Shown here: positions 57,087 through 63,209 of the stretch, piece by piece | How positions within the stretch are numbered: the first letter of the stretch is position 1 | Layout of the letters: every line of letters starts with the position of its first letter | Origin: Tessaracoccus sp. OH4464_COT-324 | Lineage (GTDB): Bacteria; Actinomycetota; Actinomycetes; Propionibacteriales; Propionibacteriaceae | DNA length: 64,000 nt | Reading direction: 5' to 3' | NCBI RefSeq assembly: GCF_003932855.1 | Contig: NZ_RQYZ01000001.1 | Location: 248,001-312,000 of the forward strand | Notes under the pieces: generated by a model | Seen by the model: only the letters and a program-made list of their open reading frames with translations | What the model was told of the DNA's origin: nothing | Databases searched by the model: none | Translations under genes and position numbers: made by a program

Positions 57087-57131
57087 GGCGTGTCTCGCGA
57101 TCGTATGGTTTAACCGGTGACGGGTTAGGGG

Positions 57132-57150
57132 CCGCCACGCGGCAGGGCGG
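57132..57150 (+). terminator. Possible hisS terminator
   Basis: CCGCC and GGCGG pair across nine bases and are followed by TTT, 45 bases after the hisS stop; an overlapping GCCGC/GCGGC hairpin at 57131-57143 competes with it. Both are short, so this is a weak call. The rest of 57087-57259 shows no coding signal. Confidence 0.3.
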
Positions 57151-57259
57151 TTTGCAGGCTAGGCCAGGAGGATTCGTTCGTTGTCGCCGAACAGAAGGGA
57201 TTGTGCCAGGTCGGCAGCTCTGTGCCCCTGGAAAGCGATGGGGGGCGGGTAGTGAGCCG

Positions 57260-57511
57260 CTACACAGAGCGAGGATCTCGGAGGTTGGGGCTTCCTGGCC
57301 TAGAGCCACGAGGGCAGTAACTAACTTGAGGAGTATCGCGCAACACAAGAACGACTGAGGTCAGCACTCTCTGCGCCGATTCCACGTCGCTCAGGACCGA
57401 CCGATCCTCGTGAGGCAGCTCGACGCTGACTCGGGTCAGGGGCGCGGCCCGCGTCAGGGTGGCCGACGCCTCGAGGTGACCATCGCGCGGCAGCGCCAGC
57501 AAAGCAGCCAT
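57260..57511 (-). CDS. Hypothetical protein or gene remnant
   Basis: An 83-codon frame beginning with ATG at 57511, just after a CCCAGG that could act as a ribosome site. The first 55 residues read like an ordinary soluble protein (GHLEASATLTRAAPLTRVSV, then ELPHEDRSVLSDVESAQRVL), but the last 25 are Pro/Arg/Ser-rich and look out of frame, suggesting a frameshift near 57340. It begins 17 bases after the stop of the interrupted frame at 57528-57914 on the same strand, so both may come from one decayed operon. I recognise no family. Confidence 0.3.
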   Translation of the reverse strand: MAALLALPRDGHLEASATLTRAAPLTRVSVELPHEDRSVLSDVESAQRVLTSVVLVLRDTPQVSYCPRGSRPGSPNLRDPRSV

Positions 57512-57527
57512 CCTGGGGCTGTTTCTA

Positions 57528-57914
57528 TCAGGCTACAACGAACGTGTCCTTCCAGACATCCCGGACATCACCAAGCGTCACGCCATTCTCAGCGAGGCTG
57601 AGATCCTCCACATCACAGTCGATGGATTGCCGGAACGCCATCGCCGCAGCTTGGAGGCTTGCTCCGCAAAGGGCTCGCACGCTGGGGAGCGTCGCAAAAC
57701 AAGCTGCGCGTCCTCGTGCCGGGTGCCCGCCGAAGATAGCAAAGATGCTCTGAACGGTACGACAGGCCTTAATCAGACGGGGAAGCAGATCGGCACTCCA
57801 GCCGGGGTGGCGCGCGGCGATATGAATGAACGCTCCCCAAGCCGTGTCGCCGTTGAGGACCTTGTGATGAACCTCGTGCAGGTGACGTCAGGGGGTGCTC
57901 AGCGAGGTCGTCAC
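57528..57914 (-). pseudogene. Stop-interrupted reading frame, family unknown
   Basis: From a GTG at 57914 the minus strand reads VTTSLSTP, then a TGA at 57890-57888, then about 119 open codons to a stop at 57530-57528. The open part has a protein-like composition with helices: NGDTAWGAFIHIAARHPGWS, LIKACRTVQSIFAIFGGHPA, SLQAAAMAFRQSIDCDVEDL and a C-terminal DVRDVWKDTFVVA. No start codon other than an internal GTG lies after the TGA. It looks like a gene killed by one nonsense change, or the 3' part of a truncated gene. Family not recognised. Confidence 0.45.
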
Positions 57915-58013
57915 CTTACAGCTTGAGGCGATAAGCGTTGAGTTGAGAGGACACCGCCCCGACGACGCTATTCCTTTGTCCGCAGGAACAAACAACACCC
58001 GAGAGCCGGAATC

Positions 58014-58523
58014 TCAGTCACGGTCCTCCTCTTGACTCCACTCTCCGTCACCCCACATCAACGGCATGTCGAAGGCCTCGTCCCGGTGCTTGAGGAGAGC
58101 GCGGAGCATGTCGAAGGCCAGGCCGGGCTCGGCCCCGGTCAGGCGGATCGTAAGCCCGGACTCCCGGTCGACAATGTCAACCACCTCAGGGGGCTTCCCT
58201 CTAAACGACCCGGAAACAGGGTGACTCCCGGCTCGATCCCTCATCCACCGCCGCACCGCCCCGACGATAGCGATCACGCGATCGGCCGCCATCTCCCCGA
58301 AGCGTTGGAAGAACCCGGTGCCAACCAACGTCAAGCAGGCAAGGATGATGACAGCGGTTCCTGAGCGGGACTGCTCTGCGAACCCCCGCCTCAACGACCA
58401 GTCCCAGCCGCTCAGGCTGGCCTCAAGGGCCTTGCGCTCGTGCTCAGCGACATCGGCCCCGTAGGACAGGATGATCAAGTCATTCGGCTGTGTTGGCACG
58501 TAGCAAGTCTGCCAGAGCATCAT
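58014..58523 (-). CDS. Small membrane protein divergent from the TPR-CHAT gene
   Basis: A 169-residue protein: soluble N-terminus (about 1-54, with NDLIILSYGADVAEHERKAL), one membrane helix (SGTAVIILACLTLVGTGFFQ, about 54-73), an amphipathic or basic stretch (RVIAIVGAVRRWMRDRAGS) and a C-terminal acidic domain ending GDGEWSQEEDRD. ATG at 58523 or 58520, or a GTG at 58499 (VPTQPNDLIIL), could be the start; the last would leave 30 bases to the divergent CHAT gene. Family unknown. Its head-to-head placement with a caspase-like protease gene suggests a partner, substrate or regulator (inference). Confidence 0.6.
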   Translation of the reverse strand: MMLWQTCYVPTQPNDLIILSYGADVAEHERKALEASLSGWDWSLRRGFAEQSRSGTAVIILACLTLVGTGFFQRFGEMAADRVIAIVGAVRRWMRDRAGSHPVSGSFRGKPPEVVDIVDRESGLTIRLTGAEPGLAFDMLRALLKHRDEAFDMPLMWGDGEWSQEEDRD

Positions 58524-58529
58524 GGTGGT

Positions 58530-60893
58530 GTGGAAGTGCTACGCAACCTTCTGGGCTGGTCTCAGCACCCACGTGCTGTCCTTACCGACCAGCGCACGGG
58601 GGAGGTTCCTGCCTGGCTCGAGGACCTCGTCGCCTCCCCGCCCGCCCCTGGGACGCTGCCCACCCTATACCGCCGGGCGGAGGGCCGCTGCCGGCAACGT
58701 GAGGCGACGCTGCTGCGCATGCGGGCCCTGCTGGCGGAGGCGGCGCAGGAGTTCGACGTCACGGGCCGCACGCCAGCCGAACAACTGTTCCACCTCGGCA
58801 TGCAACTACGACTGTCCGGGAACTTCGATGCGGCACGCTCCTGGGTGACTGCTCTGTTGAGTCGATGGGACATCGAGCCGCTGTTCAGAGCCCGGCTGTG
58901 GCGCGAGTTGGCGGCCTTGCACGAAGTGGCCGGCGCTTACGACGACGGGCTCGCCTGCATCGCATCGTCCCTGTCGATCACCGATGCAGCCGCAGACGAT
59001 CCGGCGATGCGAACGGCCGCCTGCCAGACCCACCTTCAGCGATCGACCCTCTTGCGGCTCAGCGGGCGATACGAGGAGGCGCGCACGGCTATCTCGGACG
59101 CCCGTGCCGCCGCAGGCTCTGTGCCGTCTCCGCACATCGCAGGTCTCATTGCCCTCCGAACCGCGGGACTCGATCTCGTCATCGGTCATCTAGAGCAAGC
59201 CGCCCGGGCATATGCTGAAGCTGCACAGCTGTTCGAGGCAACCAGCCCCAGCAACCGCCGCTACGCCCTTGTCCGACAGGTGACTTGCTTGCGTGAGGCG
59301 GGCGATCTCGACGAGGCTACCGCGCTGGGCACCAGATTGCTGGCTGAGGTGCATGATGACCCCTACCGGACAGCCCAGGTGCTCCTCGAACTGGCGGAGG
59401 TCGAGATCGAACGCGCCAATCCCGTCCGGCTAGAGGATATTCTGCGCCAAGCTGATCCGCTGCTGACCGACGGCAACAGCCTGGAAGCTCTCCGCTGGCG
59501 GATGCTCGTGGCGCGCTCGGTGGTCCTGTTTCGGCGTGACGATACCCACGCCGAAGGTATTGCACGTGCGAATCTTGCGCAGGTCATCAATATCGCGGCC
59601 AGCTCCGGACGCAGGGACATCACCCGTGCCCTTGGAGCTTGCCACACCTTGGCACTGCTATGCACCGACGCTGACGTTCCCTTAGCGATCGAGGCGACGC
59701 GTGCCGCCGTCGTCGCCGCCGAACTCCAGCGAAGCTCCTTGACCGCTTCCGAGGATCGCTGGCGCTTGAGAAAGGCGAGGGAAGCTGTCTACGCTGTAGC
59801 CGCCCGACTGTTGGACGGTCACGGGCGCCATGCGGACGCCGCCACCGTGCTTGAACTGGGGCGAGCCGACTTGATTGAGGAAGCTGTGGGAGGTCGTCGA
59901 CTCCCCCGAACCATCACCTCGCCGACATCTTTCCGGCCGGAGGAGCTGTCTGCGAGGCTTGTGGAACTAAGTAGCCACATGCTCGACGATGCGCCACTGG
60001 AAGACCGACCCTTCCTGACCAAGCTGCCAACCCCGCGACCAGGTGAGCGATTCCTCTCGGTCAAGCTCATCGGCCATGGCGACTCCTGGACAGTGATCCG
60101 CGCCGTCGCCTCTACCGAGCACGGGTGGTCAACCGATTCCGTTGAGGCCCCATCGCGAGTATGCGCGCTGCTGAACCGCACTCGTCCTCTGACCCGAGGG
60201 GTGAGCCGCCGTACCTGGCGTGAACTGGCCCACACTCTTCTCCCGAAGAATCTGGGCGCTGGCCCGCTCGTCATCTCGCCCGACCCGCGACTGTGGTGCA
60301 TCCCTTGGCCCGCTCTGCCCATTGAAGGTCACCACCTCGTGGATCTTGGCCCGCTCGCCCTGACCCCGAGCCTTCGGACTCACCAGATCCTTCGGCTCCG
60401 CTTCCCAAAATCATGCACCGTGATGGTGGACATCGACGACAACCTGCGCGGATCTAACCTCGAGCGCGACGCCTTGGAGCATTGGGCACGCCGAACGGGC
60501 GGCCAATCAGGTTTGCTGTACGTGGCTGGGCACGCTACGTCGCCCGAGACCAAGGTAGGCATTACGGGCCTCGACTTCGATGCCCTCGCAGCATCTGATC
60601 TACCCGAGCTCGTGGTGCTCAACGGTTGCTGGACGGGGGTAGCGCGTCCTGAGGACGCCCGCGATCCCTTCAGCTTGGCCGTCGGAGCCCTTATCGGGGG
60701 AGCCAAGTGCGTCATCGCAGGTACGGGCCCCATCGGAAGCGAGGCCTCCGCGAGTGTCGGCGCGTTGCTGCTGACGCACCTCGCCAACGGTCACGACCCT
60801 GTGTCGGCGCTGAGGTTCGCGCAGATCGCCGTGCGCAACCAGCATCCCGAAGCGGGCCCCATGGACTGGGGCGGGCTCGTCGCCGTGAACTGA
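58530..60893 (+). CDS. TPR-CHAT protein (caspase-like protease)
   Basis: A protein of about 787 residues. Residues about 60-480 are repeated helical pairs of TPR type (LFRARLWRELAALHEVAGAY, LQRSTLLRLSGRYEEARTAI, RTAQVLLELAEVEIERANPV). The C-terminal 250 residues are a CHAT domain with ISPDPRLWCIPWPALPIEG, the catalytic His668 in LLYVAGHATSPETKVG and Cys700 in LVVLNGCWTGVARPE, then SLAVGALIGGAKCVIAGTGP. Residues are numbered from GTG 58530. That start is uncertain: GTG 58536 or a GTG at 58440 overlapping the divergent gene are alternatives. CHAT proteases serve in bacterial immunity and programmed death, activated through their TPR or partner domains. The flanking defence remnants support such a role. 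Confidence 0.82.
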   Translation: MEVLRNLLGWSQHPRAVLTDQRTGEVPAWLEDLVASPPAPGTLPTLYRRAEGRCRQREATLLRMRALLAEAAQEFDVTGRTPAEQLFHLGMQLRLSGNFDAARSWVTALLSRWDIEPLFRARLWRELAALHEVAGAYDDGLACIASSLSITDAAADDPAMRTAACQTHLQRSTLLRLSGRYEEARTAISDARAAAGSVPSPHIAGLIALRTAGLDLVIGHLEQAARAYAEAAQLFEATSPSNRRYALVRQVTCLREAGDLDEATALGTRLLAEVHDDPYRTAQVLLELAEVEIERANPVRLEDILRQADPLLTDGNSLEALRWRMLVARSVVLFRRDDTHAEGIARANLAQVINIAASSGRRDITRALGACHTLALLCTDADVPLAIEATRAAVVAAELQRSSLTASEDRWRLRKAREAVYAVAARLLDGHGRHADAATVLELGRADLIEEAVGGRRLPRTITSPTSFRPEELSARLVELSSHMLDDAPLEDRPFLTKLPTPRPGERFLSVKLIGHGDSWTVIRAVASTEHGWSTDSVEAPSRVCALLNRTRPLTRGVSRRTWRELAHTLLPKNLGAGPLVISPDPRLWCIPWPALPIEGHHLVDLGPLALTPSLRTHQILRLRFPKSCTVMVDIDDNLRGSNLERDALEHWARRTGGQSGLLYVAGHATSPETKVGITGLDFDALAASDLPELVVLNGCWTGVARPEDARDPFSLAVGALIGGAKCVIAGTGPIGSEASASVGALLLTHLANGHDPVSALRFAQIAVRNQHPEAGPMDWGGLVAVN

Positions 60894-61011
60894 CGCTGTC
60901 GGATCGCATCGGAATCGCTATGCCTCTACAGTCCTTCACCTTCCGCGACGGAAGCGAACAAGCGGTATCTGCTTCGCGCCTTGCTGCGAGTGCGGCTCGT
61001 ACCATTGAAGG

Positions 61012-61479
61012 ATGAGTCGTTTCGAATTAAGAGTCCTGCCGCAAGAGGAGGACTACCGGACACCATATGAGCTCGTGGAAGGGTTCGACGACCGTTGGTG
61101 GCACGATCGAGCTGGACGAGTCGGAGACGATGACCTCGGAGGCAAAGAATACCTGCAGTTCCTCGCAGACGGGAACGAGATCGGACGCGCTGAAATCACT
61201 GATTGTTCGCTCTCTGACAGCTATGACGGGATCGACACGCCAGTTGCAACTAAGGAGATCTGGCTCTTCGAGATTCGCCAAGACGCTCGGCGTCACGGGT
61301 GCGGAGCGGCATTTGCGCAACACCTGCTTGAGCACTACCAAGGGACCCCGCTAATCGCGTTTTCGGAAGACGCTGACGAATTCTGGTCAGGTATCGGATG
61401 GCGCTACTATCCACACAAAAGCGGAGAAGGTTGGCCCCACTACAGAAGCCTTTTCATCTCGGAGCAGGTCGGCCAGTAG
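61012..61479 (+). CDS. GNAT family N-acetyltransferase
   Basis: A 155-residue protein with the acetyl-CoA signature IWLFEIRQDARRHGCGAAFA (RxxGxGA type) and the C-terminal GNAT element EFWSGIGWRYYPHKSGEGW. The N-terminal half is acidic with no clear match. The substrate is unknown. GC content is visibly lower than in neighbouring genes, suggesting recent acquisition. The ATG at 61012 comes directly after GAAGG, so translation initiation may be poor, or the true start may differ. It follows the CHAT gene by 118 bases that hold only a small CTTCCG/CGGAAG hairpin. Confidence 0.7.
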   Translation: MSRFELRVLPQEEDYRTPYELVEGFDDRWWHDRAGRVGDDDLGGKEYLQFLADGNEIGRAEITDCSLSDSYDGIDTPVATKEIWLFEIRQDARRHGCGAAFAQHLLEHYQGTPLIAFSEDADEFWSGIGWRYYPHKSGEGWPHYRSLFISEQVGQ

Positions 61480-61502
61480 CGATCTCTCCTGAACTGAGCC
61501 AA

Positions 61503-61844
61503 TCAAGCGGTTAAAACGTGGTTCGCGCGCGTTTGTATCCTTCGTGACGTGAAAGTTTCACGGATGCTCAACCGCAGCACTTCATCGGCCGTGGCGTCGT
61601 CGTCGAGCAGCTCCGCCAACGCCTCAGACACCGTGAACCGCGTCAGCACCTCCGGCGTGTAGTACGACGCCGACCGCTGCCGCTCCGACGACCGGAACAC
61701 GAACTGACCCCGTGAATAGCGACGACGGCGACGCTGCCCCGTCACCGGGTCGGTGTCGGTCACGAAATCCTTCTTCGCCAGATGATCGACACGCTCCACC
61801 GGCACCACCCAGGACTCCTTCGTCAGGTTCCCATTGGGCGCCAC
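61503..61844 (-). pseudogene. Internal fragment of a DISARM-type adenine methylase (DrmMI-like)
   Basis: A 113-codon frame from GTG 61844; the same frame is open to about 61880 (LSYTCSLADVDLCEVAPNG). It resembles the middle of Eco57I/DrmMI-like N6-adenine methylases: KESWVVPVERVDHLAKKDFV and QFVFRSSERQRSASYYTPEV with LTRFTVSEALAELLDD, the stretch just before the SAM-binding CEPALGSG motif. Similarity stops after TADEVLRLSI near 61563; the last 19 residues are unrelated, so SAM motif and catalytic NPPY are gone. It cannot be an active methylase. Comparison is from memory of the family. Confidence 0.7.
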
Positions 61845-61882
61845 CTCGCACAGGTCGACATCAGCTAACGAGCAGGTGTAAC

Positions 61883-62824
61883 TCAGTCGACTTCTGGGGT
61901 CAACGGCTCAGCCGCTACGCAGGTCAGCGCCCGCTCGACCTCGCCACTCCGCCTGGCGTCGTTCCGTTCCGCGACGGTGTGCAGATCCATCGTCAGGTAG
62001 CGGCCCTCCGGCCAGCGTGAGGCCAGGATCAGCGCGTCGGTGTTCGGGGAGAGGATCCGGGTCAGCCGGTTGTTCTCCGTCGCCGAGTTTGTGACGTTAT
62101 GGGACTCGTCGACGACGACCGCGTCCCACTGGTGGCGGCGCAGATCATGGACGAAGCGCTCCTGCTTGAGAGTGTCGATGGAGATGATGACCCGCTTGAA
62201 GAACGTGAACGGGTTGCGGTTGGCGGGCAGCTTCTGCTTCACCCGCTCCACACCCTGCGAATCGAGGCGGACGAGCGGGATGGCGAAGCGGGTCCACATC
62301 TCGTGCTGCATCTGCTCCAGCACGTGACGAGGGGTGACGATGAGGATGCGCTCGCCGCGGCCTCGTCGGATCAACTCCGCCAGGATCAGCCCGATCTCCA
62401 GGGTCTTGCCGAGCCCCACGGCGTCGGCGAGCAGGATGCGGGGCCGCAACAGATTCGGATCGAGGGCCTTCGCGACCGCCCGGTGCTGGTAGCTGAGTGG
62501 CGTCGCTAGCATCTCGCCGACGACGGCGAGCCGTGGGTCGCTGATCGGGACGCTCGTCTTCATGAGCGTCGCCTCCACCCACAACCGGGCGCGGCGGTAC
62601 CTGGGGGAGCCGTCGGGGGTGATGCGGGCCTTCCGCGGGTCGAGCGGGACCACGTCGTCAAGGGTCGTGTGGAAGGTCGCCTCCTGGCCACGAACCAGGT
62701 CGGACAGCCCCAACGCCTCGATGCATGCCCCGCTGCTGATGGCCTCGACCTGGGTGACCAACCACTCCTCGTCGCGGACCACCACCACAGTCCCAGGGGC
62801 CAAGGCCGTCTCAGCTGCACACAT
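61883..62824 (-). pseudogene. DrmD-like SNF2 helicase N-terminus fused to a methylase fragment
   Basis: The frame starts with ATG at 62824 after GGAGG and encodes 313 residues. About 269 match the N-terminal third of a DISARM DrmD-type SNF2 helicase: ALAPGTVVVVRDEEWLVTQV, motif I ILLADAVGLGKTLEIGLILA, RILIVTPRHVLEQMQHEMW, NPFTFFKRVIISIDTLK and motif II WDAVVVDESHNVTN. Just at motif III (LILAS, where SATPH is expected), near 62018, the sequence switches in frame to RWPEGRYLTMDLHTVAERND, which resembles the N-terminal part of the neighbouring methylase. Helicase motifs IV-VI are missing. An internal deletion has removed the rest of drmD and the start of drmMI. Confidence 0.75.
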
Positions 62825-62969
62825 CCGACTCACCTCCGGCCGACAGCCTATCGGGTGATCCCTTTGCCAGCCGAGCATCCCACCTCGGGCTCCCACCCGG
62901 GGCAGAGGAGCTGTGGGACGGATATGGCGCGGTTGCCAGGACGAGCGCTGGTCTGCAATCATGGTCGGC

Positions 62970-63003
62970 GGTGCCCGGACGGCACCAGCCCGGAGAACCG
63001 GGC
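62970..63003 (+). other. Two tandem hairpins upstream of rtcB
   Basis: GGTGCC/GGCACC (62970-62986) with a five-base loop and GCCCGG/CCGGGC (62988-63003) with an AGAA loop stand one base apart, both perfect. The 385-base gap 62825-63209 between the helicase remnant and rtcB holds these, a tiny open frame and further self-complementary segments, but no full gene. It may be a structured 5' leader of rtcB. Confidence 0.4.
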
Positions 63004-63020
63004 CAACGAGAGGTCGGATG

Positions 63021-63104
63021 ATGGAACGGATGCAGAGCCAGCGTGTGGCACAGCAGTCGTTCCTGCGCGCTGCCATCCGCCGCCTCGATTCGGCGAACCG
63101 CTGA
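63021..63104 (+). CDS. Possible 27-residue leader peptide upstream of rtcB
   Basis: ATG at 63021 (or 63018) follows GAGAGG at a suitable distance and opens a 27-residue basic frame (MERMQSQRVAQQSFLRAAIR then RLDSANR, stop TGA). Its Shine-Dalgarno is complementary to CCTCTCG 17 bases after its stop. Translation is unproven and a chance frame is quite possible in this high-GC sequence. Confidence 0.25.
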   Translation: MERMQSQRVAQQSFLRAAIRRLDSANR

Positions 63105-63209
63105 ATCCCGGGGTCCCCGCCCTCTCGTCATCCCCACAACTCACCCGCCCTACGGCGAGAGGTGTTCGGGCACCCCTGTAATCCATTCACGAGAATCAGG
63201 AGTAGACCC

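Follow-up and report, generated by a model that had tools for sequence, protein, structure and literature searches.

We analyzed a 64,000-nucleotide stretch of the Tessaracoccus sp. OH4464_COT-324 genome (contig NZ_RQYZ01000001.1, positions 248,001 to 312,000; the whole stretch is hereafter called the window), in which the gene for a tetratricopeptide repeat (TPR)-CHAT protease stands head to head with the gene for a small EACC1-like protein. Both opposed open reading frames (ORFs) described in an initial annotation of this DNA were present, one at 58014-58523 on the minus strand and one ending at 60893 on the plus strand. The explanation we favour, with moderate confidence, is that the pair represents an EACC1-type conflict module of two components in which CHAT is used in place of a caspase, the genes are divergent and, in relatives, a TIR domain is carried on the EACC1 side. 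The EACC1/caspase two-gene conflict system was described as System 4 by Kaur et al. 2020 (PMC7159879; EACC1 is PF19953); its authors propose sensing and protease-driven release of an effector.

The small protein (169 aa) is encoded at 58014..58523 on the minus strand, from an ATG at 58523 (or 58520), and the protease (787 aa) at 58530..60893 on the plus strand, from a GTG at 58530. The protease frame stays open upstream of this codon, up to a GTG at 58440; GTG 58530 is the most likely start because the Tessaracoccus bendigoensis protease aligns there, and with this start 6 nt (58524..58529) separate the genes from start codon to start codon, without overlap. A Pfam scan revealed a CHAT domain (PF12770) in the protease at 69 bits (curated cut-off 24), and matches to TPR models were below their respective cut-offs. 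The AlphaFold2 (AF2) model of the protease (predicted local distance difference test, pLDDT, 82.8) consisted of a helical solenoid followed by the protease domain, and matched the TPR-CHAT structures of separase and Csx29 (Foldseek/VIA). No CHAT structure was found with the protease sequence alone. The annotated catalytic residues were located at His668 (LLYVAGH; codon 60531..60533) and Cys700 (LNGCWTG; codon 60627..60629), and the protease has both the curated PF12770 score and the His/Cys dyad of a CHAT peptidase. Comparison of the window with T. bendigoensis by the Nei-Gojobori method (NG86) gave nonsynonymous (dN) and synonymous (dS) values of 0.45 and 1.38 for the small gene and 0.39 and 1.76 for the protease, the dS of both genes being high enough to be imprecise; because dN lies far below dS, these values suggest purifying selection on both genes.

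To the initial annotation the small protein was unassigned, and direct family searches identified no match in Pfam and NCBIfam (E <= 10) or in PADLOC; its profile had no match in the PDB (best E 0.36). Profile comparison through its relatives changed this assignment from a family of its own to an EACC1-like protein. The partners of the protease in Kribbella kalugense, Kibdelosporangium persicum, Amycolatopsis sp. A133 and a further genome, G1300, are longer (322-445 aa) and consist of an N-terminal domain corresponding to the window protein followed by a CAP12/Pycsar TIR domain (PF10137); the window protein stops at the domain boundary, at a common W..W motif. The window and T. bendigoensis proteins aligned with the N-terminal domains of three TIR-fused partners (Kribbella, Kibdelosporangium and Amycolatopsis) with an hhalign score of 76.9 (probability 97.8), compared with a maximum of 51.3 in 200 block shuffles. 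When five partner domains were compared with 23 EACC1 domains (23 of the 30 loci fetched, 7 being unused, all from the genus of Kribbella), the score was 53.5 (probability 95.8); the controls reached 34.0 (block shuffles, n = 200), 19.2 (column shuffles, n = 200) and 23.9 (reversed alignment). All six partner domains scored 54.2 and the three TIR-fused domains alone 57.6. The relation to EACC1 is detectable over the whole domain if all partners are used. The Pfam EACC1 model touched the Kibdelosporangium partner (E 0.0053), at 17.2 bits the best score of any relative and below the curated cut-off of 23.6, which no partner reached. We call the small protein EACC1-like, and do not file it as an EACC1 member, because the link runs from the window protein to the TIR-fused domain and from there to EACC1, and the Tessaracoccus pair alone falls short.

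Linkage of the two genes was conserved. The six protease loci compared were those of the window, T. bendigoensis (G010), Kribbella kalugense (G144), Kibdelosporangium persicum, Amycolatopsis sp. A133 and G1300. Among 146 relatives, the protease was identified at E <= 1e-20 in four genomes (the window's own, T. bendigoensis, Kribbella and a third Tessaracoccus, G017), and a scan of genome contigs gave four loci, in T. bendigoensis, Kribbella, Kibdelosporangium and Amycolatopsis. It was present in 1 of 394 genomes of a class-wide sample, this being the window's own copy, in 1 of 38 genomes of the Kribbella genus sample and in 3 of 249 genomes of the family of the Amycolatopsis genome, to which G1300 is owed as a new locus. 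The protease family is rare. The initial annotation had proposed looking for homologous proteases without the small gene beside them; a homologous head-to-head partner was found in all six loci, the window counted, with protease identity as low as 33% between loci. The start codons lie 6 nt apart in the window, 45 in Kribbella, 38 in Kibdelosporangium and 46 in both Amycolatopsis and G1300; in T. bendigoensis, where the small protein is 50% identical to that of the window, the gap is about 1-10 nt, or a short overlap given an earlier protease start. At a seventh locus, in G017, the junction alone remains (83% identity over 342 nt to window 58283-58624) and the remainder of both genes is lost. 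These data support the pair as a conserved unit.

Several further matches were left out of these counts. Large genomes gave seven weak matches to the small protein, with E from 2e-5 to 7e-4, which were set aside; the three that were opened (L009, L010 and L015) each overlap a MarR-like regulator adjoining an ABC transporter, as judged by eye. The TIR alignment also brought up G432 and G901, whose N-termini are different. The G432 gene (L062:5708-9492) joins another N-terminal domain to a TIR and a partner-like C-terminal beta domain and adjoins an NB-ARC-TPR-like gene (by eye), and here the TIR/STAND pair occurs without the EACC1-like domain or CHAT. Second CHAT places in genome G000 (E 7.8e-5) and in T. 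bendigoensis (E 9.7e-6) were ordinary distant CHAT matches. No relatives of the protease or of the TIR-fused partners were found in viral contigs. In plasmids, a single CHAT match turned up, from Rhodococcus and spanning 26% of the protease, along with 11 matches to the TIR part only; the small protein had none.

The catalytic residues were conserved unevenly across the six loci, with the Cys retained in all six and the His in four. Both were present in the close homologue from T. bendigoensis, as expected from the initial annotation; in the more distant proteases the His is replaced by Phe in Kribbella and by Arg in Kibdelosporangium. Since His and Cys are both kept in four loci and the His is gone in Kribbella, the protease is likely active in both Tessaracoccus, Amycolatopsis and G1300, as predicted from these residues, and in Kribbella it may serve as a scaffold. 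The Kibdelosporangium protease gene is split over contigs C64 (L056) and C45 (L066), exactly between profile positions 546 and 545, with an IS3-like transposase ORF (by eye) directly upstream of the second half; the split may reflect either an insertion or a break in the assembly.

Both CHAT and caspase proteases belong to clan CD. In either system a small EACC1 or EACC1-like protein has a cysteine protease of that clan as its partner. When five of the 30 fetched EACC1 loci were opened, a caspase (PF00656) was the same-strand 3' neighbour in all five, the layout of EACC1 followed by caspase described in PMC7159879. The window pair departs from this arrangement in several respects: the second gene has no N-terminal PF00656 and encodes a TPR-CHAT protein, with CHAT C-terminal to a TPR solenoid; the genes are head to head in 6/6 loci instead of EACC1 lying 5' on the same strand; and the window protein is below every EACC1 cut-off, with a TIR carried on the EACC1-like protein in four relatives. 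Unlike Csx29 of Craspase (type III-E CRISPR), whose chain gave no match to the protease sequence at E <= 1, the protease here has an EACC1-like partner, and it shares no common partner with separase, the eukaryotic cohesin protease. Pfam and PADLOC scans of five window ORFs, namely the pair and three others as far as 63076, found no Cas7-11 or other Cas protein, no gasdermin of the kind activated by CHAT or caspase, no STAND ATPase and no TIR; for gasdermins and Cas7-11 the search did not extend to the rest of the genome. In type IV Thoeris, N7-cADPR made by a TIR from the same operon switches on a caspase-like protease (PMC12847820), and the relatives likewise have a TIR protein adjoining a clan CD protease. 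In contrast to type IV Thoeris, their TIR is of the CAP12 type and fused to an EACC1-like domain, the genes are head to head and STAND genes lie near, and the window's own genome has no CAP12-type TIR. Of the four TIR-bearing partners, the three that were scanned (Kribbella, Kibdelosporangium and Amycolatopsis) matched the PADLOC phage-defence candidate PDC-S35 through their TIR part (best E 2e-18); the window small protein differs from this candidate in having neither a TIR nor a PADLOC match.

In the mechanism we propose, a CHAT protease that carries a long TPR solenoid would occupy the place of the caspase in known EACC1 systems, and the EACC1-like alpha/beta domain would dock on it, holding it off or relaying a trigger. 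Sensing of infection would free the protease, which would cleave proteins of its own cell and halt phage growth at the cell's cost. In the relatives, the CAP12-type TIR on the EACC1-like domain would link the protease with a second effector, one that consumes NAD; in the Tessaracoccus form, which lacks the TIR effector, proteolysis alone would operate, with the protease as effector. We infer complex formation, restraint or triggering, the substrate and the role in defence by analogy. Use of the pair as a compact abortive-infection module appears most plausible, because of the analogy with EACC1/caspase systems (PMC7159879) and because the TIR-bearing partners match PDC-S35.

A number of observations weigh against this interpretation. 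The genes are divergent and form no operon, and the module is rare. The His is lost in 2/6 proteases; proteolysis therefore cannot be the function common to all. The EACC1 alignment was drawn from one genus alone, and against it the Tessaracoccus sequences scored inside the shuffle range of the five-domain test, both the window protein on its own (28.7, probability 42.6) and together with that of T. bendigoensis (26.0, probability 21.9); against three canonical EACC1 sequences, the two together scored 17.6 (probability 1.4). No Pfam EACC1 match was found in the window and T. bendigoensis small proteins (E <= 10), nor in the partners from Amycolatopsis, from Kribbella (at E <= 0.1) or from G1300 (at E <= 0.05).

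A different account, in line with the reading of the initial annotation, takes the small protein to be the substrate of the protease or a membrane-bound effector, a cleaved fragment of which would damage the membrane or act as a signal, as in gasdermin-like pairs; we consider this rather unlikely. It draws on the hydrophobic segment SGTAVIILACLTLVGTGFF (residues 54-72; 58308..58364 on the minus strand), which led the initial annotation to describe a single-pass membrane protein. Mean Kyte-Doolittle hydropathy over 19 residues (KD19) of the segment was 1.92 in the window, 1.81 in T. bendigoensis and, among TIR-type partners, 1.93 in Kibdelosporangium and 1.88 in Amycolatopsis, compared with 1.54-2.36 in the EACC1 proteins themselves, and in the small protein the central helix is connected to the C-terminal hairpin by a variable linker; both features would suit such an account. 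Kaur et al. likewise propose for EACC1 a conserved transmembrane helix with small residues in a central patch (PMC7159879); the window segment contains GTG. However, charges interrupt the segment in the Kribbella and G1300 partners (KD19 1.14 and 1.17), and the AF2 model of the small protein, a weak one (pLDDT 60; the other four models 42-51), placed a strand at residues 59-67 and a helix at 76-100. A strand-turn-helix is compatible with 6/6 partner sequences and a membrane helix with 4/6. The annotated membrane span is therefore sufficiently hydrophobic in four of the six partners and doubtful overall, and we lean towards a soluble small protein on the model and the partner sequences. In canonical EACC1 proteins, too, the published transmembrane helix could be read equally as strand, glycine turn and helix.

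The remaining alternatives concern the origin and the output of the pair. It is unlikely that the Tessaracoccus pair is the relic of a larger TIR/STAND system that has lost its TIR, the remainder being in other use or on the way to loss. The third Tessaracoccus locus is a broken junction and the window neighbours are fragments, and CAP12-type TIR (PF10137) was absent at E <= 1e-3 from all three Tessaracoccus genomes, including the window's, a search that did not cover other TIR families; NB-ARC was absent at E <= 1e-5 from the two genomes searched, the window's and T. bendigoensis. Against a relic, both genes are intact with dN well below dS between two divergent species, both catalytic residues are present in the two Tessaracoccus proteases, and TIR-less EACC1 domains are the usual form, so the TIR may be a gain and not ancestral. 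By a third account, which we regard as very unlikely, the TIR of the relatives makes an ADP-ribose signal that activates CHAT, and in Tessaracoccus the pair responds to a signal from another source. The pairing of a TIR with a clan CD protease in the relatives, as in type IV Thoeris (PMC12847820), would fit. The relatives' TIR nevertheless belongs to the CAP12/Pycsar family, whose TIRs are known mainly as NAD-depleting effectors, the Kribbella protease lacks the His, and no TIR of the CAP12 family, the one family searched for genome-wide, was found in the window's genome. Also very unlikely is a role in transcription or development, in which the protease would itself be controlled or would remove a regulator. 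The top Foldseek match of the protease model was the transmembrane anti-sigma factor DdvA (E 1.6e-10), and Csx29 is described as cleaving Csx30, an inhibitor of a sigma factor (PMC10028731), which would be a precedent. The DdvA match nonetheless rests on the TPR solenoid and CHAT fold common to separase and Csx29, and Pfam and PADLOC identified no sigma factor in the scanned neighbours.

The surroundings of the pair were decayed defence genes, in agreement with the initial annotation: PADLOC identified a type IIG restriction fragment at 61503-61844 and a DrmD-like helicase fragment at 61883-63076. The annotated lack of a known CHAT trigger nearby held for the five scanned window ORFs, but not for the relatives, which carry TIR and STAND genes. 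An NB-ARC gene lies near three of the four TIR-type loci (Kribbella, Amycolatopsis and G1300), and a similar ORF, by eye only, beside the Kibdelosporangium protease half-gene. These three genomes have 10, 39 and 20 NB-ARC matches, respectively, in 7-10 Mb, and we estimate the probability of one within 10 kb by chance at a few per cent per genome. In Amycolatopsis and G1300 a TIR_2-TPR gene directly follows the protease. Downstream of the small gene, a stop-free remnant of 119 aa (57531..57887, minus strand) has no Pfam or PADLOC match; window 57797-57933 is 72% identical in DNA over 137 nt to the matching location in T. bendigoensis (L018:6517-6651), a decayed coding sequence. A further gene remnant lies at 57162..57472 (minus strand; 74% over 311 nt). 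In the decayed G017 locus, an ORF on contig C176 (L005:1816-2544), without Pfam or PADLOC match, fuses the broken EACC1-like gene in frame to a stretch resembling this remnant. The pair lies in a gene-poor, decayed insert (57087-63160) between hisS and rtcB/aspS (names by eye), and a 155-aa ORF after the protease (61012-61479, plus strand) has the look of a GNAT acetyltransferase, by eye and with no Pfam match. Beyond the small gene in T. bendigoensis (L018:3043-5832) lie a vWA-domain protein (PF13519, E 2.7e-6) and a tubulin-like ORF (by eye). Mobility of the insert is suggested because the T. bendigoensis surroundings differ.

In the literature searched, which excluded supplements and subscription papers, we came across no description of EACC1 together with CHAT or TIR; the whole word CHAT is absent from the main text of PMC7159879, and the passages of PMC8195603 consulted hold no such account. 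EACC1 systems are predicted, and no experimental test of them was found in the same literature. In a two-gene, 3-kb form that is easy to express, the TPR-CHAT pair makes the effect of EACC1 on its protease directly testable. In the TIR-fused relatives a single gene pair brings together proteolysis and the consumption of NAD+, with STAND genes adjoining, an arrangement similar to that of eukaryotic death complexes. In a bolder reading, which we consider less likely than not, EACC1-type domains could be soluble domains that dock on clan CD proteases, whether caspase or CHAT, their supposed transmembrane helix being a buried strand, glycine turn and amphipathic helix; on this platform actinobacteria could exchange the protease, using either a caspase or a TPR-CHAT protein, as well as the effector, which would be absent or a CAP12 TIR; and the Tessaracoccus pair could be the minimal, protease-only form of a new CHAT-TIR-STAND death system. 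Should the domain prove soluble, the published view of EACC1 as a membrane sensor would have to be revised.

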